Positions 5,517 to 59,647 of a stretch of DNA of 64,000 bases are shown piece after piece (position 1 is the stretch's first letter; the number at the start of each line of letters is the position of its first letter). The stretch comes from Atopsyche davidsoni (taxonomy: Eukaryota > Arthropoda > Insecta > Trichoptera > Hydrobiosidae), in contig JAILWY010000001.1 in assembly GCA_022113835.1 (NCBI GenBank), positions 13,260,501-13,324,500 on the forward strand, in the 5' to 3' direction. The notes beneath the pieces are model-generated. The model was not told the DNA's origin. It was given only the letters and a program-made list of their open reading frames with translations, and did no database searches. The position numbers and the translations under genes were made by a program.

Positions 5517-5758
5517 GTGTCGCATTCATTCAATCAGTGGATACTTGTATATGATTCACAAATACACGGCCGTTATTTCTAGTCCACGTCTGGGCTGTCG
5601 CCGTGTGTTCCGAGCTCTGAGCTAGGCCGAGCTAGGCCGAGCTAGGCCGAGCTGGGCCGAGCTGAGCTGAGCTGGGCTGAGCTGGGCCGAGCTGGGCTGA
5701 GCTGGCTTTCATGGCTCCATGGCCGGGGCCTCTCGTGTGTCGCATTCATTCAATCAGT
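5517..5758. repeat. 22-bp direct repeat flanking a GC-rich minisatellite insert
   Basis: GTGTCGCATTCATTCAATCA(GT) occurs at 5517-5538 and again, identical, at 5737-5758. The 198 bp between them contain the 10-bp minisatellite. This is either a long target-site duplication around an inserted repeat or a local 220-bp duplication. The inner left part (about 5539-5600) contains 'TTGTATATGATTCACAAATA', which resembles tails of some lepidopteran short repeats; that comparison is from memory and weak. Confidence 0.75.
5621..5705. repeat. 10-bp GC-rich minisatellite
   Basis: About 8.5 copies of a 10-bp unit GCTRGGCCGA run in strict register. Variants include GCTGAGCTGA and GCTGGGCTGA. The GAGCT core is self-complementary, so the array can form multiple short hairpins. 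Confidence 0.9.
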
Positions 5759-9256: not shown

Positions 9257-9507
9257 ATTTATTGTTAACGCATATTTATAAGAGAAAACAAAACATTTTT
9301 TTATAACTTGAAACGCCTACCCCGGAAGCCGGCTACGCGAGATGTCCCTCACAACAGCCAATACAATACGGGGTGCTTCATTTGATATTGTCTGAGATCC
9401 GTACAAAAAGGCGCTTGTTACCCGGCGGGAACCTACGTCGTCAGTTTAGTTCCGTAACGAGGCGATGGATGGTCATTACTGCGGCGGGCGGCGGGGGCCT
9501 CGTTAGC

Positions 9508-9652
9508 GCCCCGCTTCGCCCCCGTCTCGCCCCCGCTTCGCCCCGCCTCGCCCCCGCGTCGCCCCGCCTCGCCCCGCTTCGCCCCGCCTCGCCCCGCCTC
9601 GCCCCGCCTCGCCCCGCCTCGCCCCGCCTCGCCCCCGCTTCGCCCCCGCCCC
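9508..9652. repeat. C-rich minisatellite, about 10-bp unit
   Basis: About fourteen copies of CGCCCCGCYT, some with one extra C, occur back to back. The minus strand has regularly spaced G4-G5 runs with six-base loops, so it could form G-quadruplexes. Open frames on both strands here are by-products of the repeat and are not genes. Confidence 0.9.
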
Positions 9653-14427: not shown

Positions 14428-14566
14428 CTTCGATCGACACGCTTGTATGGGCACTAATTTTTCGTGCATTGTGGTGGTTGTTTCTGGCAGCCCTGGGGCC
14501 AGGCGGGACCCCTGGCTGGAGGCTCTGCCCCCCGGGCCCCCCGTGCCCCCTGCTCCCCCATGGATC
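14428..14566 (-). CDS. Candidate internal exon on the minus strand
   Basis: This GC-rich block is 139 bp long. It is bounded on the minus strand by an AG (AATAAGTCAG/G) and a strong donor (CGAAG/GTACGTCC). Two minus-strand frames stay open through it. One is glycine-rich and then reads ETTTTMHEKLVPIQACRSK up to the donor; the other is also glycine-rich. The polypyrimidine tract before the acceptor is poor and no homologue is recognised. A plus-strand acceptor (TTTCTGGCAG/CCC) is a competing reading. Confidence 0.22.
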
Positions 14567-14844
14567 CTGACTTATTGGCCGCGGCGCGACTTTAGCCTTA
14601 ATGACTGGCCTCGGAGATCAGGCCCGTGTCGGGGAGTATATCATCACGCCCGACAGAGCGTTGCTCGTGTATGCAGATTACTGCACTACAGACGTTCTCA
14701 TATTTATCTTACTACTTAATGCTGTTTTTTTTTTTTTTTAATATAAAACTCATAGCGACTGTTATATGCAAAAAAATATTGAAATTAAGTTCAAAAAGTT
14801 TTAAAATTAAAAATTTGATTATATACCTAGTACATGCATGCTGA

Positions 14845-14913
14845 TTTACGCACTTCAGAATGTAAAGGTACAAATATATGCTGTTGGTACCTTGACATTC
14901 TAAAGTGCGTAAA
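14845..14913 (+). ncRNA. Pre-miRNA-like hairpin
   Basis: The left arm 14845-14871 and right arm 14887-14913 pair over 27 positions with two internal mismatches, around a 15-nt loop. Arms start TTTACGCACTT and end AAGTGCGTAAA. A 69-nt isolated hairpin of this shape matches the usual size of a microRNA precursor. I do not recognise the mature sequence as a known miRNA. It could instead be a tiny MITE remnant or be expressed from the opposite strand. Confidence 0.4.
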
Positions 14914-15249
14914 ATATAATATAATACAATGAAATCACCCCCCTTCTCAATGGACAGTAAATGCGCAGTAGTCTTTGTCTCAGCTGCGGATTTCAGGAGG
15001 CTCGAAGGGGACTTCATAGGCCAGCACAGAGTCACGACGCAATAACCTAGTTTCGAAAACATTCCTGAATTTAATAGCGATGGGCAAAGTCGTCGATTTT
15101 GATTTTCGATTAATCCGAATATATTTTTTTAATAGTGAAATAATGAGTATTATGACGGCTTTTGAACTGCCCGAATTTTCGATATTCAATTATGTATACA
15201 TTCGAATTTACTTATGACTAGAAGAATATTTCGATGTAATTCATTATCA

Positions 15250-15900
15250 ATGAGAAGCTTTCTTTCCCTCGGCGTTGAGCGCAGGATCCATCAGCCTCCA
15301 GTTTGTGATCGAAAGACCGGTTTAGTTTCCGGCGCGAATTTAATTTATCAACCTGATTCTCTACGGATCCACTCGAGTTCTTACTTCCCGGGCTGTCAAA
15401 ACAACTGTTACATATCACACACGGCATTAGGCCGCACGGTGAAGGCGAGAACGTCATTCGCGGAACGCTCGAAACTTAATGTATTTTACAACTCGGATTC
15501 TTGCGTCACCCGAGTCAAGCGACTATAAAAAGTTGCTAATGGACCGGGACGCGGAGCGTTCGCTATAAATGTAAATTTGAGTGATTCAAACACTATTAGT
15601 GAGAGATGCTCGGCGTTAGTTTTAACAACGCTCCACTTCCGCGCAAACAGAGCGGGGGTGTCATTAAAGGCGCCGATGGTGACGTACCGCCTCCGCGGGG
15701 CTCTGTGCGAATTTCACTCCCGCATTGTGTGAAAAACTGTCGCCGGGCATTCAAAGGTAACGAGGCAGGCCGCCATTACCGGCGGCGCGGCAAATGTCGC
15801 ACTCCGTGTTTTTGCCCGCGGCTTGCCTAATTGACGCGCCTTGCAAATGTCTCTCGAAACTCGAGGCTCTGCAATCCGTGTGATCGCCCACGGGACGAAC
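15250..15900. promoter_or_regulatory. GC-rich non-coding block
   Basis: This extended composition island holds several CpG-rich patches (for example 15540-15560, 15640-15700 and 15760-15840). It also has short open frames of about 74-104 codons that overlap on both strands and show no recognised domain. It may be a conserved regulatory element or an unrecognised exon region. Confidence 0.25.
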
Positions 15901-15987
15901 CGTTGGAGTGATTTTCAGTAGATATTTATGCTATTATGATAAAAGTATCTCTGTATTTTGTCTTCACTCTGAGTTTATTAAATTTTT

Positions 15988-16033
15988 TGCATGACTAGTT
16001 TCGACCAAATAGACTAGGTCATCATCAGATGCA
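15988..16033 (-). ncRNA. Hammerhead ribozyme core 1
   Basis: Read on the minus strand: stem I TGCAT (16033-16029), core CTGATGA (16028-16022), stem II GACC/GGTC with a 10-nt loop, core GAAA (16002-15999), minimal stem III C-TA-G, cleavage triplet GTC (15995-15993), and stem I partner ATGCA (15992-15988). All catalytic-core bases of the hammerhead family are present. Predicted cleavage falls after 15993. Oddities are one extra U between the core A9 position and stem II, and a stem III of only A-U and C-G. The ACTAGT around stem III is palindromic, so two copies could pair into a longer stem III and act as a dimer. Confidence 0.72.
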
Positions 16034-16142
16034 TAACTCATAACTGAGTTATGTAGGGTGGAGTGATTTTCAGTAGATATTTATGCTATAATGATAAAAA
16101 TACCTTTGTATTTTGCCTTCACTTTGAGTTTATTAAATTTTT

Positions 16143-16188
16143 TGCATTACTAGTTTCGACCAAATAGACTAGGTCATCATCAGATGCA
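16143..16188 (-). ncRNA. Hammerhead ribozyme core 2
   Basis: It has the same arrangement as core 1, shifted by exactly 155 bp: stem I TGCAT/ATGCA, CTGATGA at 16183-16177, GAAA at 16157-16154, and cleavage triplet GTA in place of GTC. The family rule needs U followed by any base except G, so GTA is acceptable. Cleavage at both cores would release a 155-nt RNA spanning 15993-16147. Confidence 0.68.
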
Positions 16189-16195
16189 TAACTGA

Positions 16196-16241
16196 TGCAT
16201 CTGATGATGACCTAGTCTATTTGGTCGAAACTAGTAATGCA
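16196..16241 (+). ncRNA. Hammerhead ribozyme core 3, inverted
   Basis: On the plus strand: stem I TGCAT 16196-16200, CTGATGA 16201-16207, stem II, GAAA 16227-16230, GTA 16234-16236, stem I partner ATGCA 16237-16241. Core bases are intact. It lies 7 bp from core 2 in opposite orientation, so the two cores form one large inverted repeat. Confidence 0.66.
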
Positions 16242-16341
16242 TAAAATTTAATAAACTCAATGTGAAGACAAAATACAAAGGTACTTTTATCATTATAATA
16301 ATAGATCTTCACCAATCAAATGCCTTGTCCCTCAACAAGAT
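16196..16341 (+). repeat. Inverted single unit of the hammerhead repeat with a distinct tail
   Basis: The unit matches the reverse complement of the tandem units until about 16298. It then switches to a different tail, GATCTTCACCAATCAAATGC onward to CAACAAGAT at 16341. The same tail occurs in the copy at 47431-47577, so it marks a second, shared element end. Immediately after it, AGATATTTATGCT (16339-16350) again matches the tandem units, suggesting a further broken unit. Confidence 0.6.
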
Positions 16342-16351
16342 ATTTATGCTT

Positions 16352-16389
16352 TATCTTATCGTTTTGTCTATCGATAAAACGATAAGATA
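16352..16389. repeat. Perfect 14-bp stem hairpin
   Basis: TATCTTATCGTTTT (16352-16365) is the exact reverse complement of AAAACGATAAGATA (16376-16389), with a 10-nt loop. It follows the hammerhead array directly and may be part of it. Confidence 0.7.
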
Positions 16390-18040
16390 TATTTGAAAAA
16401 AAATCAAGACAGAATTTGAACTCTTACTTCCACAGCAATCGCGGCCCAGTGCTCTTGAGCAAGAATTTGAATTTGTTTTTATATTTTCAGTATTTATAGC
16501 ATAACAGTTTGTCATATTTCCACCTACTTTATTTTGTAATTATCTGAGAAATCACAGATCGTAGTTTATTTTAATTTATAATCAATTATGTAGAATCACG
16601 ACTTTTATAATGACGTCTGGCTACTGGCGTCATAGTTAATATCTGTTAATTAACGATTTAGTGACTAAAATGGATACACGATTAATCATTGAATATTAAA
16701 TAAATTAGGTAATACCTAAATTAATATAATAACATTTTATTTTTATACGCGGTGTTTCAAAAGATATTCTATAACATAAAAAAAGAAAACTTATTGGTTT
16801 TTTCTGACAGCACATATAATATTGAAATTTTATTTTTAAGCTGCTTCCAATCAAGGTTCTTTCATAATCAATTTATACAAATTAATTTTATTTACACCAA
16901 GATCAATATCGTTTTTGTAGTGTTTCCATAAGTGCATAAACGAATCTAAATGTTTTGCAATAGAAAATAATCTTATATTATAATTCAGAAAAAATAAATT
17001 AAAACCGCTTTAAGTGTGCCAGAACTAATAACTTTTATGACTTTGGAGACACTGTGTTTATAAAAAGGGATTTTAAATTCTGTTACATCATAAATAACAA
17101 AAAATTACAAAAGTGTTTATTTCCTGTCGAGAATAGACTACCACACTATGTTTTTATAATTAAAATAATTAATTCGCCTGACCTTTTAAAGGAAGAACCG
17201 AGTTATGTTTTTTTGTACTATTTAAACGCTAAGAAGTTATTTCAACTGGAAACTTAAGTATATATTAGCAGAATGTATCTCGGAATTAATTTATACGATT
17301 AACTTTACAAGAACAAAAAGTAGATTTAATTAGCTGTCCGTATGATTCAGTATTAATCGAATTAACAGCTGGAGTTTCGATTAACCTCGCCTGATTTGTC
17401 GACAGACCTAGCAGGCGGAATGGTCCGTTGTTTATGAGACTCGATCTGATGGGATTTTTTATTATTATTTCAAGTTTGTTTTCTCTTTGGTCAACATTGG
17501 AAACCAATTATTTTATGTAAAACTCTCGCCGGATTATTTAATTAAGTATTAAATTTTATTTCGTTAATTATGTTCATCAGAAAAAGAGAAGATCGTACTA
17601 TTTTAATAAGAAGAACTTAGATTTATGAATAATTTATTCCGTAACCTATTAGAGCTGCAATAATTACAAAAAACACTCTTTTTACGAAAATACATTCATG
17701 GAGACGTTGCTTTTATCTCTTTGGTATTATAAATAATTTAAATCTCATAACTATTTATATATATTTACTATTATTAAGGTTTATCATATCTGGTCTGAAA
17801 TATATATATTTTTTGTAATTTTTTGTAGAAGAGTTTTGAACTGAATTATTGACTATATATTATCATCGCACACAATCGCAATCCTCAAAATCTACAACAC
17901 GTATTATATTATGTGTATTTTAATTGAAGTTTTATTTAACGACTGTTTTATGTGTTTTTAAAAGCCATAAAAACAGAATTTTCCATTTAAATTCTTGCAA
18001 AGTGCTTTAAAGAGGTCGTTTATTATTCTCCGATTATCTG
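16390..18040. other. AT-rich stretch without a gene
   Basis: No supported frames or repeats. Short ORFs here are AT-biased and lysine/isoleucine-rich, as expected by chance. Confidence 0.4.
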
Positions 18041-18044
18041 AAAA

Positions 18045-18215
18045 ATGAACGATACTCCAGGTCTTCCTCGGGAACAGCCGACCTCGAGCATCCCCGCGCA
18101 GCCACCGGAGGTCCGATCAGACACTCAACCGGACGAGCAGACTCCCAAACTGTGGTCCGCGAAACGCAGTTACCAGCGCGGCATGCTTACATCCGATATC
18201 GGAAGGCTCAGTGTC
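18045..18215 (+). CDS. Candidate first coding exon, unrecognised
   Basis: A sharply bounded GC-rich patch inside AT-rich DNA opens with ATG (AAAATGAACG). It reads MNDTPGLPREQPTSSIPAQP and continues PEVRSDTQPDEQTPKLWSAK, a proline/serine/glutamine-rich stretch of the kind found at N-termini of regulatory proteins. The frame runs on into clearly intronic AT-rich sequence after about residue 56. The possible donor (CTCA/GTGTCA near 18212) is weak. No domain is recognised. A conserved regulatory element is the main alternative. Confidence 0.25.
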
Positions 18216-18450
18216 ACTTTTAGGCTATTGATCAATAATTGTGTCAATTTTAATGATTTTCACTTGTCAATAATAAAATTTAATCAATGTGATTTATTCA
18301 TATTAAAAATATTTTATAGACAATGTTTAACTGTATGAAATTACAATTTTTTGATAAAATTAACCAAAACAATAAAATATTTGAATTTTCATTGAAATAT
18401 TTTTTTATAGCAAATAAATACAATACTGTGAATTAATATAACCTTATATA

Positions 18451-18676
18451 GGGTGTCCCAAAATTAACGCAAGATTTGAATTTGTCGCCATTTTTGCAGT
18501 AAAGTTTTAAAAGGCTATGCCAAGCTTTCATTATTTTTGAAATATTGTTAAATAATGAAGACACGTTATTCTATCGTGTAACGTTCCATTTTTACTAACC
18601 CTAAACTGTCAGCTGGTGTTCCCAAAACTTAACTGCGAAAATGGCGACAAATTCAAATCTTGCGTTAATTTTGGGA
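18451..18676 (+). mobile_element. MITE, Tc1/mariner-like termini
   Basis: The left terminus GGGTGTCCCAAAATTAACGC continues for about 58 bp as an imperfect inverted repeat of the right end, which finishes GCGTTAATTTTGGGA at 18676. The last five terminal bases are lost on the right. The left end abuts TATA, compatible with a TA target site. There is no coding content in 226 bp, so it is a non-autonomous element. A partial second copy is at 42778-42927. Confidence 0.75.
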
Positions 18677-21497
18677 TTTAAATTTATTAATAAATATTTT
18701 GTTTTTCGTTTTCGCGTGCTTAAAAAATAATAAAGCACAACGGGATAGTTTACTACACTATTGAGATATTAAACACTGCAAGGCTTTGGAGCCGCTGAGG
18801 TCATCAATAAGTGTTTACGGGTATATTCATTGAATTGATTAATTAAGTAAGGCCCCGTATGCGATGTCTCTCGCTTAGCTCGAATATTTTTTATTGTGCC
18901 ATTAAATTAGCACGTTTCTTGAATACCAAGTGATTGTTATTTACGACATTGTTTACGCTCGTTAATAGAAATAACATTTACAGAACTCTGTTTACATTTA
19001 CATCTACACAGTGGTATATTTACATTTAAATTAACTTTGTAAAACGCCAATTTGAATAAATTGATTGGATTTGCCATCATAGTTAATTCAAGAATTGCAT
19101 GTTTCTATGATATTAAGAGGATATCATTAAGCACAGAATAAAAATAACTACCCGTGCCCTTTATTTACAGTTAGATGTTATGTATTATTTATTATAAACA
19201 TGGAATTAATTAACATTAAAATGTAAACTGGTTGATTATAGAACTCAATAGAAACTTAATGCACTCTACTAGCTTCATTTTAATTATAAAATAAATAATG
19301 ATAGCCACTCTGGCTATATTAAAATAATTAATATGGATGTTCAATAATAACTCTTTTCAATTTGTAAATCTATTATAAATAATTTTATTCTTACAGTAAA
19401 CAAAGTATTACCAATGCGACGTATTATACAAGAAGAGATCGATATTGCATTGATAGATCATTATAAAAAAAATAATTAACTTAAATAAAAGCATCACACT
19501 AACAAGAGTGTGTATTTATAAATTTTAAAGTTTCACTCATTTCAAAGGTCAGAACAAATTTAATTTATTTCATTACAACAAATATGCTAACTTTTACATG
19601 ATTTGCAATAAATCTTTATTCTCAAAAAAAAAAAACAAAATTAATTGATTGAAGATGTTAGATGAATGAAGGATGTTTTAAAACGGATACATCTCTTTTA
19701 TTCGATGCTAATATTTATTGTGGTCATAAAAAAAATCTTTTTAAAAACAACACTTAAAATTTCAAAGATTCTAGGCCATCCATTCGTGAATGAGAAACAA
19801 TTTATATTCGCGTTTATGGGAACTTTATATATAATTTAATGTTAAATGGAGAAGCTGGACTATTGCAGTGTTTAATTAGACGAGGCATTCTCTATTTGCA
19901 GGCGTCTGGTTGTGTATAATTTATACAAATGCTCTGTTATATATTTATTAACACACGCTCAAGTGTATGTGAGCACACGCACGCCATGTAATACGTGTAA
20001 AAATAAGCTGTGAATTTAATTAAAAAGAAGTCACAGAGTAAATTTAATTTATTAAAGTCACAAGTCTCCGCGGAGAGAAAAACATGATTAACATAATGTA
20101 GTATCGCATGTCAGATTCGGTGGCCAATTAAAATGTCACATAAGATATCACTTGTTGGGCCAAATTAAAAAAATGCGCAGACACGAACTTGAATTTATTT
20201 AACACAACATATACTTATATAATTATTAATGAACGTATTCGTTGGTACGTCGTGCTCCAAAATGTTTTTTTTTTGATAAAGACTGGAAAATATCTTTGAA
20301 ATGATACTCGCAGTTTTCTCACCGATAAACATTGTAGACAAATTCAAACATAACTTACGGTAATATGATGTTGTCATGTCGTCGTTAAGATAATGACATT
20401 TAATCTGCCTCGTGTTTAAACCAATCGACATTTCCAACAACAAACACACACCTAAGAAATAATTGGTAATTATTTTCAATTATATATGTTTTGCCTTATT
20501 AACCCCCTGAGCGCTGGTTGTTTCTGACTAAGATTAAAAAAAAAAAAGACACTTAAATGCTGCAATTGTTATAAAACTGTGTTGAATATATTTATTAAAA
20601 ATATCTACAAATAATATTTGGTAGCATAAGAATAGTCGTTGCTCAGCGATTGCAAGGCCTCCAGGTTCAAATGTAAGGAAACCTTTCTGATATTTATATA
20701 TGGTAGATGTGATTTCTCTGTAAACGAAAAGACCAATTCTAAATACGTAACAGGCTGTTGCTTCAAAATCGATTGCTTTTATTGGAAATTTATATCAACA
20801 AGAAGGTTATTGATAGATTTTCTATTTGAATCATTATATTGTCACAGGTTTTTGCCTACAAATTCACTTAATATAATAATTATTTAAGATTGGTTCCTCA
20901 TCTGTTATTGACCCCAAATCATTCTTAATACGTATGTTCATAAATACATTGTTTAGATCACCTGATAATGTGTATCTCATTCGTAGAATTAACAAAAATA
21001 ATTAGTAAATATAACAGTTCCAAGCAATTGAGGCGTCCATCAGTTTTAAACGGGAAGAATAAAGAGTAATGGCATCTAATTCATCTCTGCTTCGAATGGG
21101 AAGGTTTCTTCTTAAGTAATTATTTATTTAAGTGCTTAGCGGATTGAATAATATTTCATTAGAGTGATCTCGCGATTGGATTTTGAATGAGATAGTGAGA
21201 GAGCTGGCGGGCGACTCTCGCCTCTAGTGACCCTGTTGGCCAGCTGATCCGAGGAACAGCTGTTGCTAATACCGCCGCGGCAGGCGTGCTCAAGCGTGGA
21301 CCGCACACAATGTAACACATTTAACTTCGAAATTAAATAACATCATCATTACTGTATCGCGTGGTCCGACTGGAATTTTAATTGAAGTCGCTAAGTCATC
21401 AACTGCATGACCAACTGCGGCTACTACGGCTGGCTGTTCAATTCTAGGTGATCGTCTTTTGCATGATTTTTTACAGGATTCTAAGCGAGATACTTTT

Positions 21498-22872: not shown

Positions 22873-25800
22873 TCAGGTCGGAGCTCTGGAGGCTATTTGG
22901 CGTTGCCTCTCGAGCTCCTCCCTTCGGGTCATGGTCTTCTCGGCAAAGGAGACGACTCCGTCCCAAGCTCGCTGGTCCTTGAGCATGGACGGCACTAGCT
23001 CGTCCGCCGTCCAGACGATGCCAAGGCTGTTCCGAAGTCGCCATCGCTCCACTTCGGTCGCTCCGCAGTTGAAGAGGGCGTGCTCTGCGTCGTCGCTGTA
23101 GTCGTCGCACAGTGGGCAGCTCACGTCGACAGGTCGGCCAATCTTCTCGAGGTAGCTACCGAAGCAGCCGTGCCCCGAGAGGAGTTGGGTCAGCCTGTAG
23201 GTGACCTGGCCGTGTCGTCGCGAGATCCACGGGCGGATGTCCGGGATGAGCCTTCGCGTCCAGCGCCCTTTGGTGGATGCCGCCCATCGCTGTTGCCAAG
23301 TCTCGGTGACGTCTGCCCTCGCGCTGGTCCTTATAACAACGAGGTCTTCCTTCTGTTGTCTCGCCTCGTAGATCTTTTGGCGTTCTCGGGCCATCAGATC
23401 TACCGGCGGCATGCCAGCTATCACCAGAGCTGCGTCTCCCGAGATCGTGCGGTAGCCGCATATTATCCTGAGCGCTGCTCTGCGCTGGACGCTGGCCAAC
23501 ATATTCCTGTAGTGGGAGATCTCCATCGTGTTTGCCCACGTCTCCGCACCGTACAGGATCTGTGACATCGTCACGCTGGCCAGCAGTTTCCGTTTAGATT
23601 CCATCGGTCCTCCCACGTTGGGCAGCATTCTTGCTACTGCCTCAGTAGTTCCAGCAGCCTTCCGAGTAGTCCGTCGTATGTGGTCCGTGTACTTCAAAGA
23701 GGTGTCGAAGTACACGCCCAGATATCGGGCGGACCTCTGCGGGACTATTTGTGCCCCACCCACGGTGATGTTAGGTGTGGGGTACTTTCGTCTGCCACAG
23801 AGCATCACCGCTTCCGTCTTGTGGCAGGCGAGCTCTAATCTGTTCTCCGCAAGGCTGTGGGAGATTCTCCTGAGGGCTTCATTTGTTCTTGCCTCCAGTT
23901 CGTTGATCGTTTTCGCTGAGACGACAACGCCAATGTCGTCAGCGAATCCTATCTCCTCCGCTCCCTCCGGCAGCTCCGTGTTTAGTACCGCGTCGTACAT
24001 CACATTCCACAGCAATGGTCCGAGGACGGAACCTTGCGGAACTCCGCACGTGAGGTGTCTCGCTGCTGGGGGGGCACCTGCTGTGGAGTAGCGGACGACA
24101 CGGTCCTCGAAGTAGCTGGCGATGGTCCGGCGGAGGTAAGCAGATATGCGCTTTTTTTCCAGTGCTCCGAGAATGATGTCCCAAGAGGCACTGTTGAAGG
24201 CGTTTCTAACATCGAGGGTGATCAGGAGACAGTACTCGCGCGTGCACCGCGTCCCGGCGTTAGCTTCCTTCATCCTCCGGTGGACTCTGCTAATTGCGTC
24301 TGCAGTCGATCTGCCCCTGCGGAACCCGTATTGGACGTCGGATAGTCCGCCGTTTTCCTCAATTTCTATTTCAAGTCTGACCTTGAGCAACCGCTCAAGC
24401 AGCTTGCCCAGTCCGTCCAACATGCATAGTGGTCTGTAGGACGAGGGCAGGCCTGCCGGTTTGCCTCCCTTGCGCGCCAGCACTAGGCGGGCTGTTTTCC
24501 AGCATCTCGGAAATGTGCGTTCGGCAAGGCACTGGTTGTATACAGCCAGCAGCGCTGAGGGATTTTCTCGCACGGCCAGTCTGATGGCTTCGTTCGGGAT
24601 GCCATCTGGGCCGGGTGCTTTACCGTACGGAAGTCTTTTGGCCGCCTCCCGTAGTTCAGCCATGTTGAAAGGGTGGGCAACCTCTGTGGCAGCGTCAGGT
24701 ATGGGGTTCATCATAGGAGGGCGAGTAGGGAATAGAGCGTCCAGGATCGTTTCCAACATCCCTGGCAGAGTTATCCCTGGAATTGCCTCCGGAATTCTTA
24801 ATTTCTTCCTCACAATTCGATACGCCCTGCCCCAAGGGTCGTTATCGACTTGTAGGCAAAGGTCCTTCCAGCACTTCTCTTTGGCTGCCTTGATAGCGAA
24901 TGCAAACGATTGTCTAGCAGCTTTGGCGTTGGCCATCTCCACGGTGCAATCGAGAGTGCCTGCTTTGCGACGTCGCTTGCGCTGGAGCGCACGTCTGGCA
25001 GCAATTGATGTTCTGCGTAGGGCTGCAATGTTGTCATTCCACCAGTATACAGGTCTTCTCGTGGGGTGGTTGCTTCTTCTTGGCATTGACTCGTCGCAGG
25101 CATCGCTTACTCGCTTGACCAGAGTTAGCGCTGCTTCTTCCAGGCTCCCTGCCTCGGTTTGCGGGTTGTTAGGCGTTGCAAATTTCTTAGAGAATCTGTC
25201 TAGATCCATCTTCGCCAGGTTCCAGGACGGTGTTCGATCTGGCGCTGATGTTGCATTGTATAGGGGGTTTCGGTCGAGGATTTCGTAAGAAATGTATAGA
25301 TGGTCGCTCAACGACTCGTCTTCAAGAACCCTCCAACCTCGAAGCGCACGTGCAGTTCTAGGGCTCGCGAAGGTGACGTCAATCACTGACTCCGACGTTC
25401 TTCTCCGGAAAGTGCTGCTATCTCCCTCGTTGCATGTTACCAGACCAAGTCCAGCCGTCATATCTGCAAGTGCTGTGCCTCTTTTATCCGTTGTCCTCGA
25501 ATTCCACTCCGCGGCCTTGGCGTTGAAATCGCCAGCGAGGAGTACCTCACCAGGGTGCGCCCTGATGTCTTGCTCAAGTTGGGCGAGGTACGCCTCGTAT
25601 TCTGCCAATGTCACATTTGGTGAGATATAGCAGCTATACAGACGTACGCCACAGACCCGGATCCAGGTGAAGCCGTGTCCGCTGGTTCCAACCTCTTCGA
25701 TGGGCGTATTGCCGAAAGTGACTACAGCCGTCTTGCCTGTTGTGTCGCTTGTCCATCTGCTGTTCTCCGGAGGTGTACGGTGCTGCTCACAGATGATGGC

Positions 25801-25893
25801 GATGTCCGCCCGTGTCTCTCGCGCTTTCTGATCCAGCAGCGACTGTGCAGACTTGCAATGGTTCAGATTAATCTGTATGACGTACAGAGGCAT
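22873..25893 (-). CDS. ORF2: endonuclease-reverse transcriptase, R1 clade
   Basis: This 1006-residue protein carries out target-primed reverse transcription. Residues 1-205 form an apurinic-like endonuclease: N9 in IQINLNH, E36 in IICEQH, D122/N124 in GDFNA, and SDH at 196-198. The reverse transcriptase occupies about 410-700: KAPGPDGIPNEA near 425, LDVRNAF with D561, GVPQGSVLGP at 617-626, and the catalytic FADD at 650-653. A zinc finger C-X2-C-X8-H-X4-C lies at 926-943. Length is close to the usual 1000-1100 residues of R1-clade ORF2. The ATG lies inside the end of ORF1 (26-bp overlap in another frame), so translation probably depends on reinitiation or frameshifting. No disabling change is visible. 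Confidence 0.95.
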   Translation of the reverse strand: MPLYVIQINLNHCKSAQSLLDQKARETRADIAIICEQHRTPPENSRWTSDTTGKTAVVTFGNTPIEEVGTSGHGFTWIRVCGVRLYSCYISPNVTLAEYEAYLAQLEQDIRAHPGEVLLAGDFNAKAAEWNSRTTDKRGTALADMTAGLGLVTCNEGDSSTFRRRTSESVIDVTFASPRTARALRGWRVLEDESLSDHLYISYEILDRNPLYNATSAPDRTPSWNLAKMDLDRFSKKFATPNNPQTEAGSLEEAALTLVKRVSDACDESMPRRSNHPTRRPVYWWNDNIAALRRTSIAARRALQRKRRRKAGTLDCTVEMANAKAARQSFAFAIKAAKEKCWKDLCLQVDNDPWGRAYRIVRKKLRIPEAIPGITLPGMLETILDALFPTRPPMMNPIPDAATEVAHPFNMAELREAAKRLPYGKAPGPDGIPNEAIRLAVRENPSALLAVYNQCLAERTFPRCWKTARLVLARKGGKPAGLPSSYRPLCMLDGLGKLLERLLKVRLEIEIEENGGLSDVQYGFRRGRSTADAISRVHRRMKEANAGTRCTREYCLLITLDVRNAFNSASWDIILGALEKKRISAYLRRTIASYFEDRVVRYSTAGAPPAARHLTCGVPQGSVLGPLLWNVMYDAVLNTELPEGAEEIGFADDIGVVVSAKTINELEARTNEALRRISHSLAENRLELACHKTEAVMLCGRRKYPTPNITVGGAQIVPQRSARYLGVYFDTSLKYTDHIRRTTRKAAGTTEAVARMLPNVGGPMESKRKLLASVTMSQILYGAETWANTMEISHYRNMLASVQRRAALRIICGYRTISGDAALVIAGMPPVDLMARERQKIYEARQQKEDLVVIRTSARADVTETWQQRWAASTKGRWTRRLIPDIRPWISRRHGQVTYRLTQLLSGHGCFGSYLEKIGRPVDVSCPLCDDYSDDAEHALFNCGATEVERWRLRNSLGIVWTADELVPSMLKDQRAWDGVVSFAEKTMTRREELERQRQIASRAPT

Positions 25894-27289
25894 GGCGCTG
25901 CTGTCTGTAGGCCTTCAGGTATTTCCTGAAAGCTGCACACTGTCCACTCCCTTTCGCGTGGTCGCTTCTCCCCCCTTGGGAAGCGCACGTGGAGCACTTG
26001 GGATTGTTGTGGCACTCCTTGGCCTTGTGGCCAGGCCGGCCACAGGTGAAACACTGTTTACTTCGGTCCTGGCCTCTGCATTGATGGGCTGCGTGGCCAA
26101 AGTCGAGGCACCTAAAGCATTTGGGGATGTTCAAGTGTTCTCTCACTCGGCAGCTTACCCATCCGACGCGGATCTTGCCCACCGCAATGAGAGATGCTGC
26201 TGCGCGGGTCGCGATGTCAACCAGGCCTGTCCGTGTTCCATTCCGGGCCGGGAGGAACTTAACGGCACTGGTCGTGTCCGGTGGGCATCCTCCGTGTGTC
26301 GCTAGTGCAGTGATCAATTCATCCTCGGTCGTCGATTCATCTAGGTTGTGTACTTCGACTGTCGTTGTGGTGCCGAGGCTTTTGACGCTGGCATTCTCGC
26401 CGAGAGCGCCAGCTACCGCCTTGGTCAGTCTGGTTGCGGACTCAGTGTCGGCTCCCTCCAGCTCGACTATGATGAACCCTGCGCGGGTCTTGCGGACAGT
26501 CCGGACGTTGGCGCCTTGCTCATCCGGCCTGACCGCAGTCTTCACCGCGGAGATCGTCTCTGCGGCGGTCTTCCCGTTGAGGGGACGTATCTCCACGGCT
26601 GGCATTTTCCGCGCCGGGAACCGCATTCTGGTCTGCGGGGGTTCAGGAGGGCGCTTTTTGGCGGCCCGCCTTTTGACGATGATGAAGTCGCCGTCGTCGT
26701 TCTTCGCAGAGTCTGTAAGCGCTGCCGGCGGTGCTGCTGCTGCTTTTGATGGTGGTGCTGCTGCTGCTGGTATCCGTGTTGCTTTTGACACTTTTGTCCG
26801 CGGTGCTGCTATCGGTGCTGCTATCGGTGCCGCCGCTGCGGTCTTCTCGGGTGCTGCTGCTGCGGTCTTTTTTGTTCCTACTATTGTTGTTGCTGTTGCT
26901 TCTGCGGGGGGCTGTCGCCGACTATGTTGCGGTTTGGCCGCTACTTTCCCCGTTTTGTATGTGGGAGGATTGCATGTCGACTTACGCGCGGGGACGGCTG
27001 CCGCCATGGCATATGTCCCAGGTAGCGAGGCCCTTGAGGTCGTAGGTCTGGAAGCGGGTCTGGGTGCTGGGGTGGTCATGGTGCGTGCAGCGACACGCTG
27101 TATACACAGCCGTGTTACCGAGCGTAGCTTCTCGATTGCCGCCTTAAGCGCTCGATTGGTGTTTGGCCTGAGCAGCTCCTCCATTTCCCTGGTGAGTTTT
27201 TCCAGCTGCCAGGTAATTTCCAGGTCCAGAACTGGTAGCATTTCTTTATTCGCGCCTAGTTTTTGTGGGATTTGTTTTGAAAGCGCCAT
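25868..27289 (-). CDS. ORF1: zinc-knuckle nucleic-acid-binding protein, R1 clade
   Basis: This 473-residue protein would bind the element RNA and form the ribonucleoprotein. The N-terminal part (about 20-70) is predicted helical. The middle (about 75-200) is low-complexity, rich in Ala, Pro, Lys and Thr with repeated AAPIAAP-type words encoded by GC-rich triplet repeats. The C-terminus has two canonical CCHC knuckles (C-X2-C-X4-H-X4-C) at 391-404 and 413-426 and a third, variant cysteine/histidine cluster at 432-451. This pattern is standard for R1-clade gag-like proteins. It ends 26 bp inside ORF2. Confidence 0.93.
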   Translation of the reverse strand: MALSKQIPQKLGANKEMLPVLDLEITWQLEKLTREMEELLRPNTNRALKAAIEKLRSVTRLCIQRVAARTMTTPAPRPASRPTTSRASLPGTYAMAAAVPARKSTCNPPTYKTGKVAAKPQHSRRQPPAEATATTIVGTKKTAAAAPEKTAAAAPIAAPIAAPRTKVSKATRIPAAAAPPSKAAAAPPAALTDSAKNDDGDFIIVKRRAAKKRPPEPPQTRMRFPARKMPAVEIRPLNGKTAAETISAVKTAVRPDEQGANVRTVRKTRAGFIIVELEGADTESATRLTKAVAGALGENASVKSLGTTTTVEVHNLDESTTEDELITALATHGGCPPDTTSAVKFLPARNGTRTGLVDIATRAAASLIAVGKIRVGWVSCRVREHLNIPKCFRCLDFGHAAHQCRGQDRSKQCFTCGRPGHKAKECHNNPKCSTCASQGGRSDHAKGSGQCAAFRKYLKAYRQQRHASVRHTD

Positions 27290-27740
27290 CTTTTGGTCAT
27301 CCTACAAGTACGTCGGTACTACAGACAGCGACTCAGAAGGTAACTGGATTAACTAGATAACTAGAATAATCTAAAATAATCTGGGTGTAGAATAATTCAT
27401 TTTATAATAATAATTCATTATATAATGATCCTGGTGTAGAATAATTCAGGATGGTCCATCCGTAAACATCCAATGTAACCGGTGACTTGTGCGGGTGCGG
27501 GCACTAAAAAGGATCTCGTGTACAACTTCTTTTGAGGTTATGTTTTGTACGAACTTTTTAGAAGATAGTCGAAATAATTGGCAGATCAGTCAAACAATTT
27601 TCACAAAACCCTGCTGTGGCTTCACTATTCACTTGTGCCGTTCACTGTTTGTCGGATGGCCGGTATTTCATCCAGGTTTCTATATATTTGTTCGGAGCTC
27701 TTTGTTAGGACGTGCAAATGACGTGGAATGATGAATCGCG
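27290..27740 (-). other. Probable 5' UTR and promoter of the R1-clade element
   Basis: The stretch upstream of the ORF1 start is non-coding. GGTGTAGAATAATTCA occurs at 27384-27399 and 27433-27448, separated by AATAATTCAT-type words, giving a small internal repeat. The sequence is GC-richer than the flank to about 27740, where an AT-rich run begins; this shift sets my approximate element boundary. An internal promoter is expected for the class but no motif is certain. Confidence 0.45.
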
Positions 27741-44110: not shown

Positions 44111-46719
44111 TTACGCCATAAATATTAAATTCATTTGCTAATCAAGATTATAAGTATACTTAAAAGTAAGAAGGAGTTGCTATGTGTTTTTTCTTTCTTT
44201 ATGTTTTGTTTATTTTTAATATCAACTTAAACTATTGTAAATGGCTGTGTAAAGGGAATCGATGTGGTTGAATATTACTTAAATGTTTAATATTTTCATT
44301 ATTCTTGGATGGGGCAAAATTCATCAATTTCACAGTCAAACAAGCCATTCATTGAAGATACCGTTCTGCCAATAGTTAAAAATAAGAAGTAATTTCGACT
44401 CGTTGAATGAAAAATAACATTGTGCTGTCTGAAATTCGATCACGGATAAAAAATATATCCGCTTCTTTGATGTTCTGGCAACATTTTTTACAATATTAAT
44501 ACATATGAATTTAAAGAAAACCATATACTATGTCATTATATTTTCGTACTATTATCTGGTTGATATATATCATTCATGATAGTTAATGTACAACTCAATT
44601 TATAATAACCGTTTCCCACACTTCTCAGAGATCTTAGTAGTGTATTATAGAATAAACGCAGTGATTTATATTAACCAGACACGAATTCGCACGTTTTCAA
44701 TTGACAAAAATTTAAAAAACAACATACTGAAGTAAAACTTTCGCTTCTAATTAAAAAAACTCGTTCAAGCTTCCGTCAAAAATAAATTTCAAGAATATTA
44801 TTAATTAAACACGTAAAATCAACTATATCACGCTATAGTCAAGCAAGTAGGTTTATTGAATATTATTATGGGAAACTCGTACTTAATGGTTACTTAATAA
44901 AACTTTTAGAGTACACAGTTTATATTCGTATATCCGAATAATTTCAACTCGGCTCTGATTGCAAATCTGTGAGAAACTCGCTTTTTATTCCCCGTGAATT
45001 TCTTGCCGCCAATGTGGCAACTTTAGATTGCAACTCAGCACAATTCGATGCAGATCATTTATTGGATAACCAACAAACCATAAAATAATCACATTAAAAT
45101 TATATTTTTTTCCAGGTGAGAAACTTCAAAACTCATAATTTAAACGAGGAGTCTATGTGATTGCATTCTTTAAAATTATATGCAAAATACACTCGTGAAC
45201 AAATATTTTCAGATGAATATAAACAACTGTGGTTTTGATTATATTTTAATGTCATGTAATTTTTTTTTGTTCGAAAGGTTTTCACTGAAATCCAAAGAAA
45301 TTAAGAAGTTTTTTTTTGAGCCAAATAAAGGTTATGTACAATTTTAAAGTAGTGTTTTTGATTCTTTAATACGCCAATAGCAAAATTACTCAGTTGCGTT
45401 TCTGCTTGACGGTTGCTCAGTGAAGAATGGCATTTACAATTACCAGCATATCGAGCGTCGCATTATACGATCATTAAAGTAAAACATTTTGATTAAGGTC
45501 TCGTATCGCTTTATCTATTGTCAACTTCCGTGGCCATGAGAGACTTCCACAAGCCGCGTATCGTGGAGCAATTTCTAAGTATTCATTAATGCGATGCTAA
45601 TTAAAGGAGAAATTCTAATTACGTACAACGCTACACAGCCCGAGTCAATTATCACGCAATATTCCATACAAAAATGCTTCGGGAATATTGCATAGTTTAC
45701 CTGCACGATTTAATAAAGAGTCTCATTAAATTATATGGTTTGTTTAGTCATTACTGTTTTTCTGATCTACTTTTTTTCTCTTTGTTGCAGAAGGTACGTA
45801 GTGCATTTTCCACACTGGATTCCTGCCGACGCTGTTGAAGTAAGCTATTATTTAATTATAACTATAAGTGACATGTTAAAAAGGTAAGTGTGCATGGTTA
45901 GATACGCTTTTGCGATATTACTAAAGATATTTTCTCATTTGTGATTATGTTTTATTACAACATTTATCATTATCGTTTATCAACTACAAGTATTACCCGT
46001 ATAATGTAACTTACCTCCTAAAGGTATGTTAAAAGAGCTAAGTACTTACAACTTGAAGATGTAAAATGAATAGGCCCAAATAATACGATAGGAATTGATC
46101 TAAATGATATAGAGTTATAAAAAATAACAGTATTATTAAAAATTAGTAAAGAGTATTGTGCTATTATATATTAACTATATAAGTTAAGTTACGATTGGAT
46201 GTTAAAAATTATTTGAGACAAGCAGGCAAAAACAATAATTTAAAGTTATTTAAGTCTGTTTTTACCTTCTCAACTGGAAATAATTATCACGCGTAGGTTC
46301 AAAATCATAACTAGCCATGGTATTAGATGAGAAAGTTAAAATGCACTCTATTGTAATTTAATGTACAAGATGTCTCTGAATGCTTATTTATTACTCGTGA
46401 CATTCATTACATTACTAAAAATGACCAATAATGAATTAGTTTTAATGTGAACTGTTTATATTTATTTTAGTTCTAAGATCTATAAGAATTAAATTTGTAG
46501 TTTTATTACACAATAAATTATAATAATAAGTCATAACAGCGTAATTTTATGTATTTAAAAAAAAAAGTATTCGTTTTATTAGAATTTGTCGTACAATTTA
46601 TATTTTACTGTTAAAAGATTATTTTATAATATTTTCCACGTATAAATAAATTGAGTTACGCGTAATGAATATAAAACGATATAAATCACATTAGCAAATT
46701 AACTTCTCAATAAAAACAG
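44111..46719. other. AT-rich stretch without a gene
   Basis: A modest GC rise at 45380-45730 carries AATTAAAGG and AATTACGT words. Nothing coding or repetitive is supported. Confidence 0.4.
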
Positions 46720-47110
46720 CCTCGAGGTAGGCGCCGACATATTGACATTCTATTAAGTCCTCCAAATACCAGCCGAGTTCTCCATTATCGTGTGAGCAGA
46801 TTTTCTATTAACTGGAAAGTTGGCAGGCCGAGGGTGGGTTCGGCTCGGTTCGACTCCCGCGCAGGTGTCGGCCACCGCCTTAGAGGCAATATCCGCCGCA
46901 CTTCCGGTCTAGAGGAAATGAAACCGGAAGCTCCGCTGTATTAGGGGGTGGTGCACTACAATGGGGTGGGATAACTTCTTCCCCATCCCCCTGCGAATGT
47001 AATTTACTTGCTGCATTAATTAAAATCGACCTTACATTAGTTTAATTACTCCGTTTGTGTGAGTTCTGCTTATTAATAGCGTGATATTCCACGAGTTTGG
47101 GGTGGCGTAT
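46720..47110. promoter_or_regulatory. GC-rich non-coding block
   Basis: A block of GC-rich patches (GGGTTCGGCTCGGTTCGACT near 46836) alternates with TTAATTAAAA words. There is no coding frame. Candidate conserved element. Confidence 0.25.
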
Positions 47111-47430
47111 GAAATATAAACTACCCCAAGCTAATTGCAAAATTAAATTTATCCTGTATAGCGCTGGGCAAATGCGTGGTAATTAAATACATATTTTATG
47201 GTATTAATATCTATTATTCAAAATTAAAATACGTTCTACAAACATTTAATTAAGATTATTTATCGTCAAAAAAACGGCTTAGGGAAGAAATTCATGCAGT
47301 ATTGAGTACATATTGTTGTATATTTTCTTGCGGTATACCGTGTAATTATTATAAACCATTCTATGCAATCACTATGGATCTAAAAAATGAATAACTCAAT
47401 ACGTCGTCAAGTAACTATTTATTATATTTA

Positions 47431-47577
47431 ATCTTGTTGAGGGACAAGGCATTTGATTGGCGAAGATCCATTTTTTATAATGATAAAGATTACTTTGTAT
47501 TCTTTCTTCACTTTGAGTTTATTACATTTTTTGCATTGTTAGTTTCGACCAAACAGACTTGGTCATCATCAGATGCA
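47431..47577 (-). repeat. Fourth copy of the hammerhead repeat, solitary
   Basis: It matches the inverted unit at 16196-16341 over its whole length, including the tail CTTGTTGAGGGACAAGGCAT onward (47433 on). Sequence divergence and a changed core indicate an older insertion. No tandem partner is present. Confidence 0.65.
47532..47577 (-). ncRNA. Decayed hammerhead ribozyme core 4
   Basis: CTGATGA (47572-47566), stem II, GAAA (47546-47543) and stem I TGCAT/ATGCA are conserved. The cleavage region reads CTAACA in place of CTAGTC. The essential U before the cleavage base is therefore C, and the ACTAGT palindrome is lost. It is probably inactive. Confidence 0.5.
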
Positions 47578-47829
47578 TAACTAAACTGAAAAACGATGAA
47601 AATCTTGATTTTTTTCATGAGGTTACACTTTAGGACTATTGCGACTTTGTGGTGATCGTATTATGATTTTTTCGCTCAAAACGTATAAATGATATAAAAA
47701 ATTTTGATGAGTAAATAATTAGGATTTTTATGACTGTGATGCATGTTTGAGTATATACGTCTTAAGAGAGGGTATGTATGCGCATCTTAGTGGTTAAATC
47801 TCCGAAATGAAATAAGTAACAGTTATTTT

Positions 47830-48090
47830 CCGTGTAATTACAATCGACAAAGGGGTGGCGGGGTGCGCTGATAGCGTCACCCGGGCGCGTCGCTCCGAAC
47901 AAAGTTGGTCGACTCCGTAGCTCGCCAGGGCTTTGGGAAGTCGGGTCGGAATCCAATTTGGGTGCGGGCGGGGCGGGCCGGGGGCCGCGCTGACAGCTCT
48001 CTGATTGAAAAATACGGAAACATGTTTATGGAAGAGGCGCCCCTGCCTTGGTTTGTGCCTCAACACCGTCCGGCCGCGTGAAGCCTTTTA
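47830..48090. promoter_or_regulatory. GC-rich non-coding block
   Basis: A CpG-rich core (GGGCGGGGCGGGCCGGGGGC near 47968) lies in AT-rich surroundings. Overlapping frames on the minus strand have no domain. Candidate regulatory element. Confidence 0.25.
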
Positions 48091-48439
48091 AAAATTCATT
48101 TTAGGGTCGTCAGAATATACACCATGTGCCTTAAAATATTAATAAATAATAAATATTAAATACGCCATGTGTATGAGATATTACACATTACGAAGATCCC
48201 TCTAAAGAAAGCGCTGTTGCCTTTCCATAGCTACTCTGTGCTTGTCCAGTTGCAAAATAAAACTCCGATTCTCGATACATACCTGTAAAAATATAATTGC
48301 GTCATTTATAATTAAATTTGCTTGTATTTTAGTAGTGCGCAATTATAAATATTACCCGAGTAAATATCACAATAAAGAGTATGACTAAGCAGAATTTAGC
48401 GTTAAAAAAGTAAAACCATTTCGTGGTTTAAATGGCGTA

Positions 48440-48700
48440 ACAGCCACACGCACACCAGCCGCGGCGTCTATTATATCGTTATTCACAAATTTACAATAAA
48501 AACCAATAAACGCAAAAAGTCACCACTCGTTAGGGCCGCGGTTGGCTCACGCAACACCGAAGGCTTGATTCAGCCGCGATTGGCTTTGAGGGACCGCAGG
48601 ACGGGGGCCCTCGGTGGGTCGCCCCCACGCCCCCACCCCTAGTTGCATCCCCCACACCCGCCGCACAGGCTTTTTTCCCGCAGGTAACTGTGGCATTTTA
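48440..48700. promoter_or_regulatory. GC-rich non-coding block
   Basis: Contains TTTACAATAAAAACCAATAA near 48490, with words similar to Hox-type TTTAT/ATAAA sites, followed by a C-rich stretch 48600-48670. No ORF. Role is inference from composition. Confidence 0.22.
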
Positions 48701-49212
48701 AATATTTTTTTTTATAATTTTTGCAAAACGCTATTGTTTAAATTTATATAAATATTTTAGTTACTTTACGCTTTTCACTGTTTGTTTCGTTATTACATTT
48801 TCAAAGCGTATAAAAATTAAATGCAGAAAGCCTTGCTCGTGTGGCGGGACGCGGAAGGGTTGCCGAGGGCGCCTCGCCGCTCCACCCCTGATTGCCTTCA
48901 ATCCACACAGCACATGTCAGTCTGCCTTTCAATGTTTCCCATACACTTCTCGCACACGTGCTACCTGGCAAAGAGAACTTGCCTCTGCCACGTCATTTTA
49001 AATTCTGTGCGGTAATTTGGTTTACGTTTATAAAACGTTTTTAAGTTTGATTTGACTTTAAACTCTTCTGAGTTTCTACCGGTGATTTTATTTATGAAGT
49101 GTGTTTGTTGCATTTTTTTTAAGGCACAAACTAAAAAGGTAAATAAGTATTTTTTTAGAATTGAGGAAGAATTGAGGTGGCAATAATATGACTGTATGAG
49201 GTGTCACAAATG

Positions 49213-49425
49213 AAAATGCGCAAAGACAGGGAACTCTTGACGTTGGTAAAGAAGCAAAAGGTCACCTATTTTGGTATTAAGTAAGGCATCCTCCAGCTGA
49301 TTGTCCAAGGAAAAATCAACGAAAAAAAGGGCATTGGAATAAGGAAGTTAGGCCCAGGATAGGGATAAGTTCGCGGAAATGGTCACTAACCTAATACGAG
49401 GAGAGGCATCAGAAGAAGAAGATGA
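49213..49425 (+). pseudogene. C-terminal fragment of an RTE-type endonuclease-reverse transcriptase
   Basis: The frame reads KDRELLTLVKKQKVTYFGIK, a stop, then LQLIVQGKINEKKGIGIRK. After a frame change it gives EMVTNL and a GAGGAGAGGCATC tail. This is the well-known C-terminal signature of RTE-type polymerases that are abundant in insects (a YFGH/ILQLIxxGKIxGKRGIGRK-like pattern). Stops and frameshifts show it is dead. Its end is shared by the non-autonomous repeats at 41668, 58541 and 63208. Confidence 0.7.
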
Positions 49426-49499
49426 ATATACGTTTCTACCGTTCGTACGTGAATGTTCGATTTCAGCAAAGGTATTGGTCTCTTAATGCATCGATAGTA

Positions 49500-49690
49500 C
49501 AAATTCCCCTAATACCGCGGCGGTAGAATGGGATCGCGGGCTTGCACCCCCGTCCCCTTCCTCGCCATCCGCAGATCCAATATTAATGCCGGCGTACATA
49601 ATTGTGTGCACACTCCTCCGAGGGGCATTTAATATCGGCCGTCACTGCGCGAACAAATAAAAACTGCTGACTTTAGTAATGCTTATTCCA
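49500..49690. promoter_or_regulatory. GC-rich non-coding block
   Basis: Includes ACCGCGGCGGTAGAATGGGA and a downstream CCAATATTAATGCCGGC word. There is no open coding frame. Candidate conserved element. Confidence 0.22.
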
Positions 49691-51129
49691 TGTAAGGCAG
49701 ATGCTGCATCTTCGCTTGCACGGGCACAGTAGAAAACATGATATATATCATTTGAGAGATTAATTAAATTTCTTTTGGGAAAACTCTAAGTAAATACCGA
49801 ACTATAAATAGGTTTTCGTTTAGAAGTTACTAATAAGATTTTAAAATGTTATAACTTGTTTTCATATGTAAAAAATACCATTTGAATTAAAAACTCTCTG
49901 AACATAATAATAATGAAAATTGTTAGGATGTTATCAACAAAATGAAACGACAGTTTCCTCTGATTTTTTTTAGACTGTGTGTCTATAGACGCTTCATTTA
50001 AGTCATTTGTGCTTGGTCTAGCCGTAGCAGATCACAATATTCGACCTGTACCCATTAACTGTCAACTCAATAATCTGCTTGGCAAACAGCAGTTACGGTA
50101 TTGTCGAAATTTCTTATGATATTAATAATTTATAGGACGACTCCCGAGTCGAGCTGAAAAACTCCATGATATTTCCAATAAAATTATTTGAAAAAGTTAA
50201 GAATTTAATACTTGAGATCATACCTTGGAATTCGTGAATAGTTTGCTTGCAAAGCAATAAGCGGCAGATTTGGCCCGCGACCCCCCTTTCTCCTCCCGGG
50301 CAGTAATATTGGATTCTCTTTACTCGTAATAGTCACCGCCATAAATATTAATAAACGCCTTTGAATTCTTATAACCACATGTAAAGCACATATAAAAATG
50401 CTACATACGTACTTCTGTTGTAAGCGGAATATGTTCCCGAGGAAATTTAATTTTCTTTTCGTTCTAGCTCATATTTATTCGCCTGTATGGGTTGACACGT
50501 TTGCAATTACGGATCGTACATTTTCTTAGCTCAAATTGACACAAATGAAACGCGTAGCTATATTTTTTATTTCGGCTTCGCCATTGTGTTTATTCTCATG
50601 TTGTAAACGAACGCAATATAACACAGTTTTAGTTATAAGTTTGTTAATTCGCATCGCGTGCCTTGGCGTTGAATATCACGCCATTTATGATAAGTGAGAT
50701 ATTTGCAAGCTAAATACTAAGCTTGTTATAATACATTTAAATTATAATTAATAAAAACTTGTATAATTAGTTATTCAAAAATGTCACAAGGCACTTTAGT
50801 TCTCAAGTAAAGTTGCGTTTCAAGGGTTTTTTTTTCAGTCACGCAATATCTCTCGGTTACACTTTGTATAATTTGAAACATCGGCTATGACATGCAAGTG
50901 CTAGAAGCATTTTCTCAGAAGCATTGCGCTAACGATCGTTACCCCGTTTCCAGACGATACATACTACCATTAAACGCTAATACTTAAAGACTTAGAGGAA
51001 GAAGTTTATTTAATAATTTCATTACCACATTTAATATTGAGCATTATATATTATGTTTTTTGATACATCAACACAAAGTAAAGATAGTAGATGGGATCGC
51101 CTTTTCCGCATTTCTGTTTCAATGCAATT

Positions 51130-54830: not shown

Positions 54831-54993
54831 GTTTATGTGATTAAGCATATTTTTTCACACATTGAAAACGATTAAAGAAAACTCTCAGAAAATATCATCG
54901 TGACTTGTGAGGGATTCGAACCCACATCCCCAAGCTTTCATGGCCGGTGCATTTATCCAACTATGCTAACGAGCCACTGCAATTTAGTGAGAA
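54831..54993 (-). mobile_element. tRNA-derived SINE, left (inverted) copy
   Basis: Read on the minus strand, it has an A box (TAGCATAGTTGG) and a perfect B box (GGGTTCGAATCCC) in a tRNA-like head, then a family-specific tail ending GCTTAATCACATAAAC. It is identical to the right copy. Confidence 0.75.
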
Positions 54994-55045
54994 TTTTTTT
55001 TTTTTTTTTTTTTTTTTGCATATTGGTTCATATGTAGATTATGAT

Positions 55046-55077
<32 letters not shown>

Positions 55078-55079
<2 letters not shown>

Positions 55080-59591: not shown

Positions 59592-59647
59592 GCGCACGCC
59601 CCGCCGCACGCCCCGCCGCACGCCCCGCCGCACGCCCCGCCGCACGC
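59592..59647. repeat. 12-bp C-rich minisatellite
   Basis: About 4.5 copies of CGCACGCCCCGC run in register. The overlapping frames, which are repetitive Gly/Arg/Ala on the minus strand, are by-products. Confidence 0.88.

Follow-up and report, generated by a model that had tools for sequence, protein, structure and literature searches.

The window analysed here, a stretch of 64,000 nucleotides of Atopsyche davidsoni DNA, contains four copies (A to D) of a small non-coding sequence with a hammerhead-like motif. They are likely members of one dispersed retroelement family whose full copies measure about 150 bp, and the family is best matched by the pseudo-LTR (pLTR) of a Penelope-like element (PLE) that lacks the coding body. 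Membership of the four copies in the PLEs is probable, and the locus is otherwise an ordinary retroelement relic. We propose that B and C represent a composite insertion, in which the inverted, tail-less B would be joined head-to-head to the direct, tailed C between 13-bp target-site duplications, and that A would be an added 155-bp direct repeat with 29 bp of target DNA included. The features are listed below by window coordinates, with the strand where one applies.

15904-15919: putative target-flank copy 1, 16 bp, an exact match to 16059-16074 and not covered by the BLAST homology to C and D
15920-15932: copy 1 of AGATATTTATGCT, the putative target-site-duplication sequence inside the duplicated A unit
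15933-16038, minus strand: element copy A, pseudo-LTR-like, with no recognisable tail; its nhmmer match extends weakly to 15892
15987-16034, minus strand: hammerhead-like motif A, with a palindromic ACUAGU in helix III, H17 = C and an extra U beside stem II
16032-16053, minus strand: short palindrome heading copy A, with two 9-bp arms around a gap of 4 nt, a predicted hairpin
16059-16074: putative target-flank copy 2, an exact string match
16075-16087: left 13-bp putative target-site duplication AGATATTTATGCT, an exact string match
16088-16192, minus strand: element copy B, inverted, tail-less, head-to-head with C
16142-16189, minus strand: hammerhead-like motif B, H17 = A
16190-16341, plus strand: element copy C, direct, tailed, the inverted-repeat partner of B
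16195-16242, plus strand: hammerhead-like motif C, H17 = A
16304-16341, plus strand: 3' tail of C, common to D (37/38 identical) and not recognisable in A and B
16338-16350: right 13-bp putative target-site duplication, whose first 4 bp (AGAT) are also the last of the shared tail
47431-47583, minus strand: dispersed element copy D, with tail and 3' end as in C
47531-47578, minus strand: degenerate hammerhead-like motif D, with CUGAUGA and GAAA kept and ACUAGU changed to ACUAAC

A reading made from the sequence alone (the sequence-only reading) had reported two cores 155 bp apart on the minus strand, and this spacing was confirmed, with the CTGATGA...GAAA cores starting at 16028 (A) and 16183 (B) of that strand. 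Tandem Repeats Finder recovered a direct repeat at 15904-16193 (period 155, 1.9 copies, 94% matches), and the direct-repeat copies A and B were 94.2% identical over 138 bp in BLAST. Beyond the earlier claim, a third core (C) lies inverted on the plus strand at 16201, head-to-head with B, and a fourth, degraded core (D) is dispersed, at 47572 on the minus strand. All four copies were joined by BLAST (B versus C, 94% over 127 bp; B versus D, 90% over 107 bp), and a search of the window with a profile of the four copies returned no fifth copy above chance, the next match having an E-value of 1.5.

On the minus strand the unit reads GCAT-CTGATGA-T-GACC-TAGTCTATTT-GGTC-GAAAC-TAGT-H-ATGC, where H is C in A and A in B. 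The cleavage arithmetic given earlier is correct, in that H17 falls at 15993 and 16148 and double cleavage would free 15993-16147, that is, 155 nt. The word "intact", which had been applied to the cores, was too strong: the core letters and stems are present in A, B and C, but one extra U stands after A9, between it and stem II, helix III comprises 2-3 bp, and the Rfam score is low. The ACUAGU of A, B and C is self-complementary, whereas the ACUAAC of D is not and D also loses the A15.1-U16.1 pair, so motif D is probably dead.

To describe the motif we used a descriptor that required CTGANGA, tolerated a single extra base, and set minimum lengths of 4 bp for stem II, 2 bp for stem III and 4 bp for stem I, with GAAA between stems II and III and UH between stems III and I; its thresholds were set after the cores had been seen. 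The descriptor matched three times in the window (A, B and C) and not once in 200 first-order Markov shuffles, counts that are to be read with the post hoc thresholds in mind; core D fails it. Over 101 aligned positions, differences within the motif (48 positions) and elsewhere (53 positions) were 1 and 6 for A-B, 2 and 5 for A-C, 1 and 3 for B-C, 5 and 10 for A-D, 4 and 7 for B-D, and 5 and 8 for C-D. The direction of these differences would fit a core under selection, and we make no claim of it, the numbers being too small and non-independent.

The covariance-model check named in the sequence-only reading, against the Rfam type I hammerhead, came out divided. No hammerhead was returned at the locus at the gathering threshold, and a search of 621 bp at E <= 5 returned none either, the hairpin matching microRNA and other families below their cutoffs. 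On a 76-nt stretch holding motif A, RF00163 (Hammerhead_1) matched over its full length (positions 1-45 of 45) with 13.8 bits and E = 0.64, below its cutoff of 34; it was the sole family listed among 4227 for this stretch, and the alignment treats the extra U as an insertion. In a control at the cutoff, Rfam also missed full-stem cores in seven loci with the extra U and in five loci without it, and three cores of one viral contig stretch (L026) were missed at E <= 5 as well. Since full-stem cores were missed too, the silence of Rfam is weak evidence, and since cores without the extra U were among those missed, the extra U is not established as the reason.

The extra U recurs in other sequences. 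The pattern CTGATGA-T-GACC..GGTC-GAAAC was found at 75 IMG/VR and 19 GTDB loci (94 in all), comprising 99 cores, while A, C or G replaces that T at 11 IMG/VR loci and at least 120 IMG/VR loci have no inserted base. A stem I of at least 4 bp together with a closed stem III of at least 3 bp was present in 38 of the 99 U-insert cores, in 2 of the 11 cores with another base, and in 93 of 135 cores without an inserted base (from the at least 120 IMG/VR loci). Some GTDB matches look coding by eye (L076, L083, L085, L086, L091 and L094, in similar context) and were counted as misses. As extra-U cores with complete stems were found, hammerhead-like motifs that are otherwise complete can carry the inserted U. 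The locus provides an animal repeat in which a minimal motif of this sort has an extra U beside stem II, a variant that viral and bacterial contigs show again, there with complete stems. These contigs resemble copies A-C in the extra U and in the same stem II base; they differ in contig type and in the completeness of stems I and III in the 38 cores, and the comparison concerns the core alone. A pattern that included stem I and ATGC occurred at 0 loci in IMG/VR, and the stem II loop of copies A-D was absent from all 99 extra-U cores of the 94 IMG/VR and GTDB loci. The section on core variants in PMC3088659 does not describe this U insertion.

Two further observations were made among these contigs. 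The viral stretch L026 holds three hammerhead-like cores, at 1952, 2550 and 2883, and a Pistol ribozyme above the Rfam cutoff at 1279-1355. Many IMG/VR contigs (L001, L012, L014, L041, L064 and others) carry cores of the form CTGATGAT-GACC..GGTC-GAAAC without a closed stem III, which form recurrent families, some of them just upstream of an ATG by eye, and which may be phage 5'-UTR hammerheads of other topology.

Within the locus, B and C form an inverted repeat with arms at 16087-16189 and 16195-16297 (103 bp, 96% complementary) and 5 nt between them, and the junction reads GATGCAT-CAGTT-ATGCATC. The tail of C reads GATCTTCACCAATCAAATGCCTTGTCCCTCAACAAGAT, and D carries it at 37 of 38 positions with the same 3' end. 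The 13 bp of the putative duplication occur exactly at 15920, 16075 and 16338, that is, outside A, outside B and after the tail of C, and the homology of B with C and D ends at 16087, one base into the 13-bp duplication. The simplest reading of the 13-bp repeat around B and C is a target-site duplication, and as the 13 bp recur at both ends, it would follow most simply that B and C were inserted together. The 16 bp TGGAGTGATTTTCAGT are repeated before A and before B, and each unit has a 29-bp stretch, TGGAGTGATTTTCAGTAGATATTTATGCT, where the BLAST homology with C and D stops. We infer that these 29 of the 155 bp per unit are probably target DNA, which undermines 155 bp as a natural monomer. 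The empty target site would then have been the 29-bp stretch once, followed by TTATCTTATCG. For D, the best duplication candidate is 7 bp and unconvincing. Just past the right target duplication, a separate hairpin lies at 16352-16389 (17-bp arms, 94% complementary).

A single standard insertion does not account for copy A and its 29-bp repeat. Aligners place its flank opposite the tail, and nhmmer carries its homology out to 15892. When the 48-bp left flank of A was compared with the tail, 44 and 40 of 2000 shuffles were as good in global and 163 and 146 in local alignment; for the 29 bp common to A and B, compared with the tail in 2000 shuffles, the corresponding numbers were 201 and 211 (global) and 1072 and 292 (local), so that these 29 bp show no significant similarity to the tail. 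A much-decayed tail in A is conceivable on this weak similarity, against which the exact recurrence of the 13 bp is the main argument. A may have arisen by tandem duplication of the flank together with B, or may be an insertion of its own that duplicated 29 bp; the pairwise differences (A-B 7, A-C 7, B-C 4) do not decide the order of events.

Several features that would be expected of a pLTR remnant were found at this locus: a shorter inverted copy beside a direct one, with a palindrome at the junction, B tail-less and C tailed; a short, optional 3' tail on C and D, and weak similarity to it at most on A; and a 13-bp putative target-site duplication around B and C. Cervera and de la Pena reportedly described in 2014, according to passages that cite their work, pseudo-LTRs of PLEs with minimal type I hammerheads. 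In the account of Arkhipova (2013, PMC3846280), as far as its relevant passages go, Penelope inserts comprise two direct pLTRs and an adjacent shorter inverted pLTR with an optional 31-bp tail, the junction palindromes are most often head-to-head and attributed to self-priming, and the target-site duplications are of 8, 9 and 10 bp. Passages of PMC7761336 and PMC6155905 give the PLE hammerheads as minimal type I forms without helix III, which according to the former occur in tandem or dispersed, may cut as dimers, and are without the loop I-loop II tertiary contacts of the canonical fast form.

The link to Penelope-associated hammerhead repeats that the sequence-only reading had drawn therefore fits the locus, by the minimal helix III, the tandem and dispersed copies, the head-to-head inverted copy with its junction palindrome, the optional tail and the short target-site duplication, so far as the published passages describe these. 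The locus differs from PLE pseudo-LTRs in its duplication of 13 bp, compared with the 8-10 bp given there, in the apparent target DNA carried by A, perhaps in the extra U beside stem II of copies A-C, and in its coding content, as no reverse transcriptase/GIY-YIG body was seen in 4.5 kb around each locus. A six-frame search of 14500-18999 and 45500-49999 (E <= 0.1) returned no Pfam family, hence no PLE reverse transcriptase or GIY-YIG domain, and because of this the locus was not classed as an autonomous PLE. That candidate was set aside, no open reading frame with a reverse transcriptase or GIY-YIG domain having been found in the two 4.5-kb stretches.

If the copies are pLTRs, the self-complementary ACUAGU of helix III would pair two RNA copies and allow dimeric cleavage by a minimal type I hammerhead, and the RNA of tandem pLTRs would be trimmed in this way. 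The head-to-head inversion would come about if the element inserted by target-primed reverse transcription and, at its palindromic head, primed itself or switched template.

Twin priming by LINEs likewise generates inverted 5' halves accompanied by target duplications. B and C might be a SINE-like element moved by a LINE, target-primed, with a 5' inversion by twin priming and with the hammerhead as the 5' part of the element, a route that we regard as rather unlikely. It would suit the common 3' end of C and D, whose heads differ by few bases, the single 13-bp duplication, and the presence in the window of an R1-type LINE with long open frames at 22873-27301. The tail, however, is without poly-A or a simple repeat, and the junction palindrome, the tail-less inverted copy and the minimal hammerhead all fit Penelope better. 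A BLAST of the tail against the window returned C, D and one 11-bp match, and as it matched none of the R1 element, the tail is not the 3' end of that element.

The LINE itself, a non-LTR retrotransposon at 22873-27301 on the minus strand, contains a 1013-aa open reading frame with endonuclease and reverse transcriptase domains. We take it to be of R1 type, the name borne by one match. An adjacent 477-aa frame has a CCHC knuckle that scores marginally, at 20.7 bits where the cutoff is 20.8. Among the 120 of 408 matches that were listed, those named by organism come from Trichogramma wasps and the flea Xenopsylla, which points to an insect host.

The sequence-only reading had also considered a tandem, retrozyme-like element of unusually short unit. 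A non-LTR retrozyme of this kind would have the 155-bp unit as its true monomer, which would be cut twice, ligated to a 155-nt circle and reverse-transcribed in trans by a PLE. The exact 155-bp spacing is in line with this, as are the ACUAGU and the permitted H17 kept in both cores, and animal repeats of 150-450 bp, those of insects included, are stated in passages of PMC7229834 to make RNA circles of about 170-400 nt. The length is therefore less exceptional than had been thought, as 155 bp lies within the 150-450 bp of the animal type I hammerhead repeats in that source, near the short end. The 155-nt circle, in contrast, found no support: 29 bp at one end of the unit resemble target DNA, C and D end differently at the 3' side, the array comprises two units beside an inverted one and is not a longer head-to-tail series, core B is predicted to lie in the 103-bp hairpin with C, and helix III is minimal, not canonical. 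We judge a retrozyme monomer distinctly improbable. The locus illustrates how a tandem retrozyme can be simulated by an insertion that includes an inverted copy: where the unit contains target DNA, regular tandem spacing is no proof of a monomer.

Compared with the animal non-LTR retrozymes, as portrayed in parts of PMC7229834, the locus is similar in its small size, within the range of 150-450 bp, its non-coding tandem units and the type I hammerhead-like motif in each of them, and differs in having two units plus an inverted one, apparent target DNA in the unit and a minimal helix III. It shares with the hammerheads of the newt satellite and the axolotl retrozyme (passages of PMC7229834 and PMC6155905) a very weak helix III and a self-complementary tip that would favour dimeric cleavage. 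The newt and axolotl units differ in being 330-350 bp long and of very high copy number, and those passages describe no inverted head-to-head copy.

We also considered a hairpin or foldback DNA repeat whose likeness to a hammerhead would be due to chance or to a long-dead relic, and regard it as very improbable. In its favour are the large inverted repeat, the Rfam score under its cutoff and the broken core of D. Against it, the motif was held by 0 of 200 shuffles (with a descriptor chosen afterwards) and is repeated in three copies, and D stands alone, with no second arm to form a hairpin, so that single copies of the family disperse too.

With regard to activity, minimum-free-energy prediction for a minus-strand transcript of 15880-16330 (451 nt) gave a fold of -203 kcal/mol in which core B pairs with antisense C. 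A transcript without C (15880-16190, 311 nt) was predicted at -56 kcal/mol, and a plus-strand transcript at -208 kcal/mol with core C buried. The minus-strand transcript would yield antisense C first and B 5 nt later, and because B follows antisense C and is predicted to fold onto it, cleavage is probably blocked at the locus. A would stay outside the B/C hairpin but would lose its dimer partner. When two cores were cofolded as RNA, the dimeric hammerhead of the textbooks did not appear; since secondary-structure energies ignore the tertiary core, this result was used neither way, and it lends no support. Stems I and II alone were predicted at -7.5 kcal/mol against a minimum fold of -10.0 in A and B, and at -6.9 against -10.8 in D.

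We give very little credence to a bolder scheme, in which an A-B dimer would cleave through ACUAGU despite the extra U and release a 155-nt circle, with the inverted C acting as a built-in antisense off-switch. Were it true, the 155-nt circle would be smaller than the animal circles of about 170-400 nt in the relevant part of PMC7229834.

Two other kinds of repeat were observed in the window. A perfect 187-bp inverted repeat, either a recent inversion or an assembly artefact, has its arms at 54831-55017 and 55054-55240, separated by 36 nt; each arm holds a tRNA-Ser(TGA) gene, and the arms end on the inside in poly-T/poly-A. Tandem repeats of 8-12 bp, rich in G+C, occur at 5619-5705, 9507-9646, 59593-59655 and 60652-60737, examples of which are GAGCTGGGCC, CGCCCCGCCT and GCCCCGCA.
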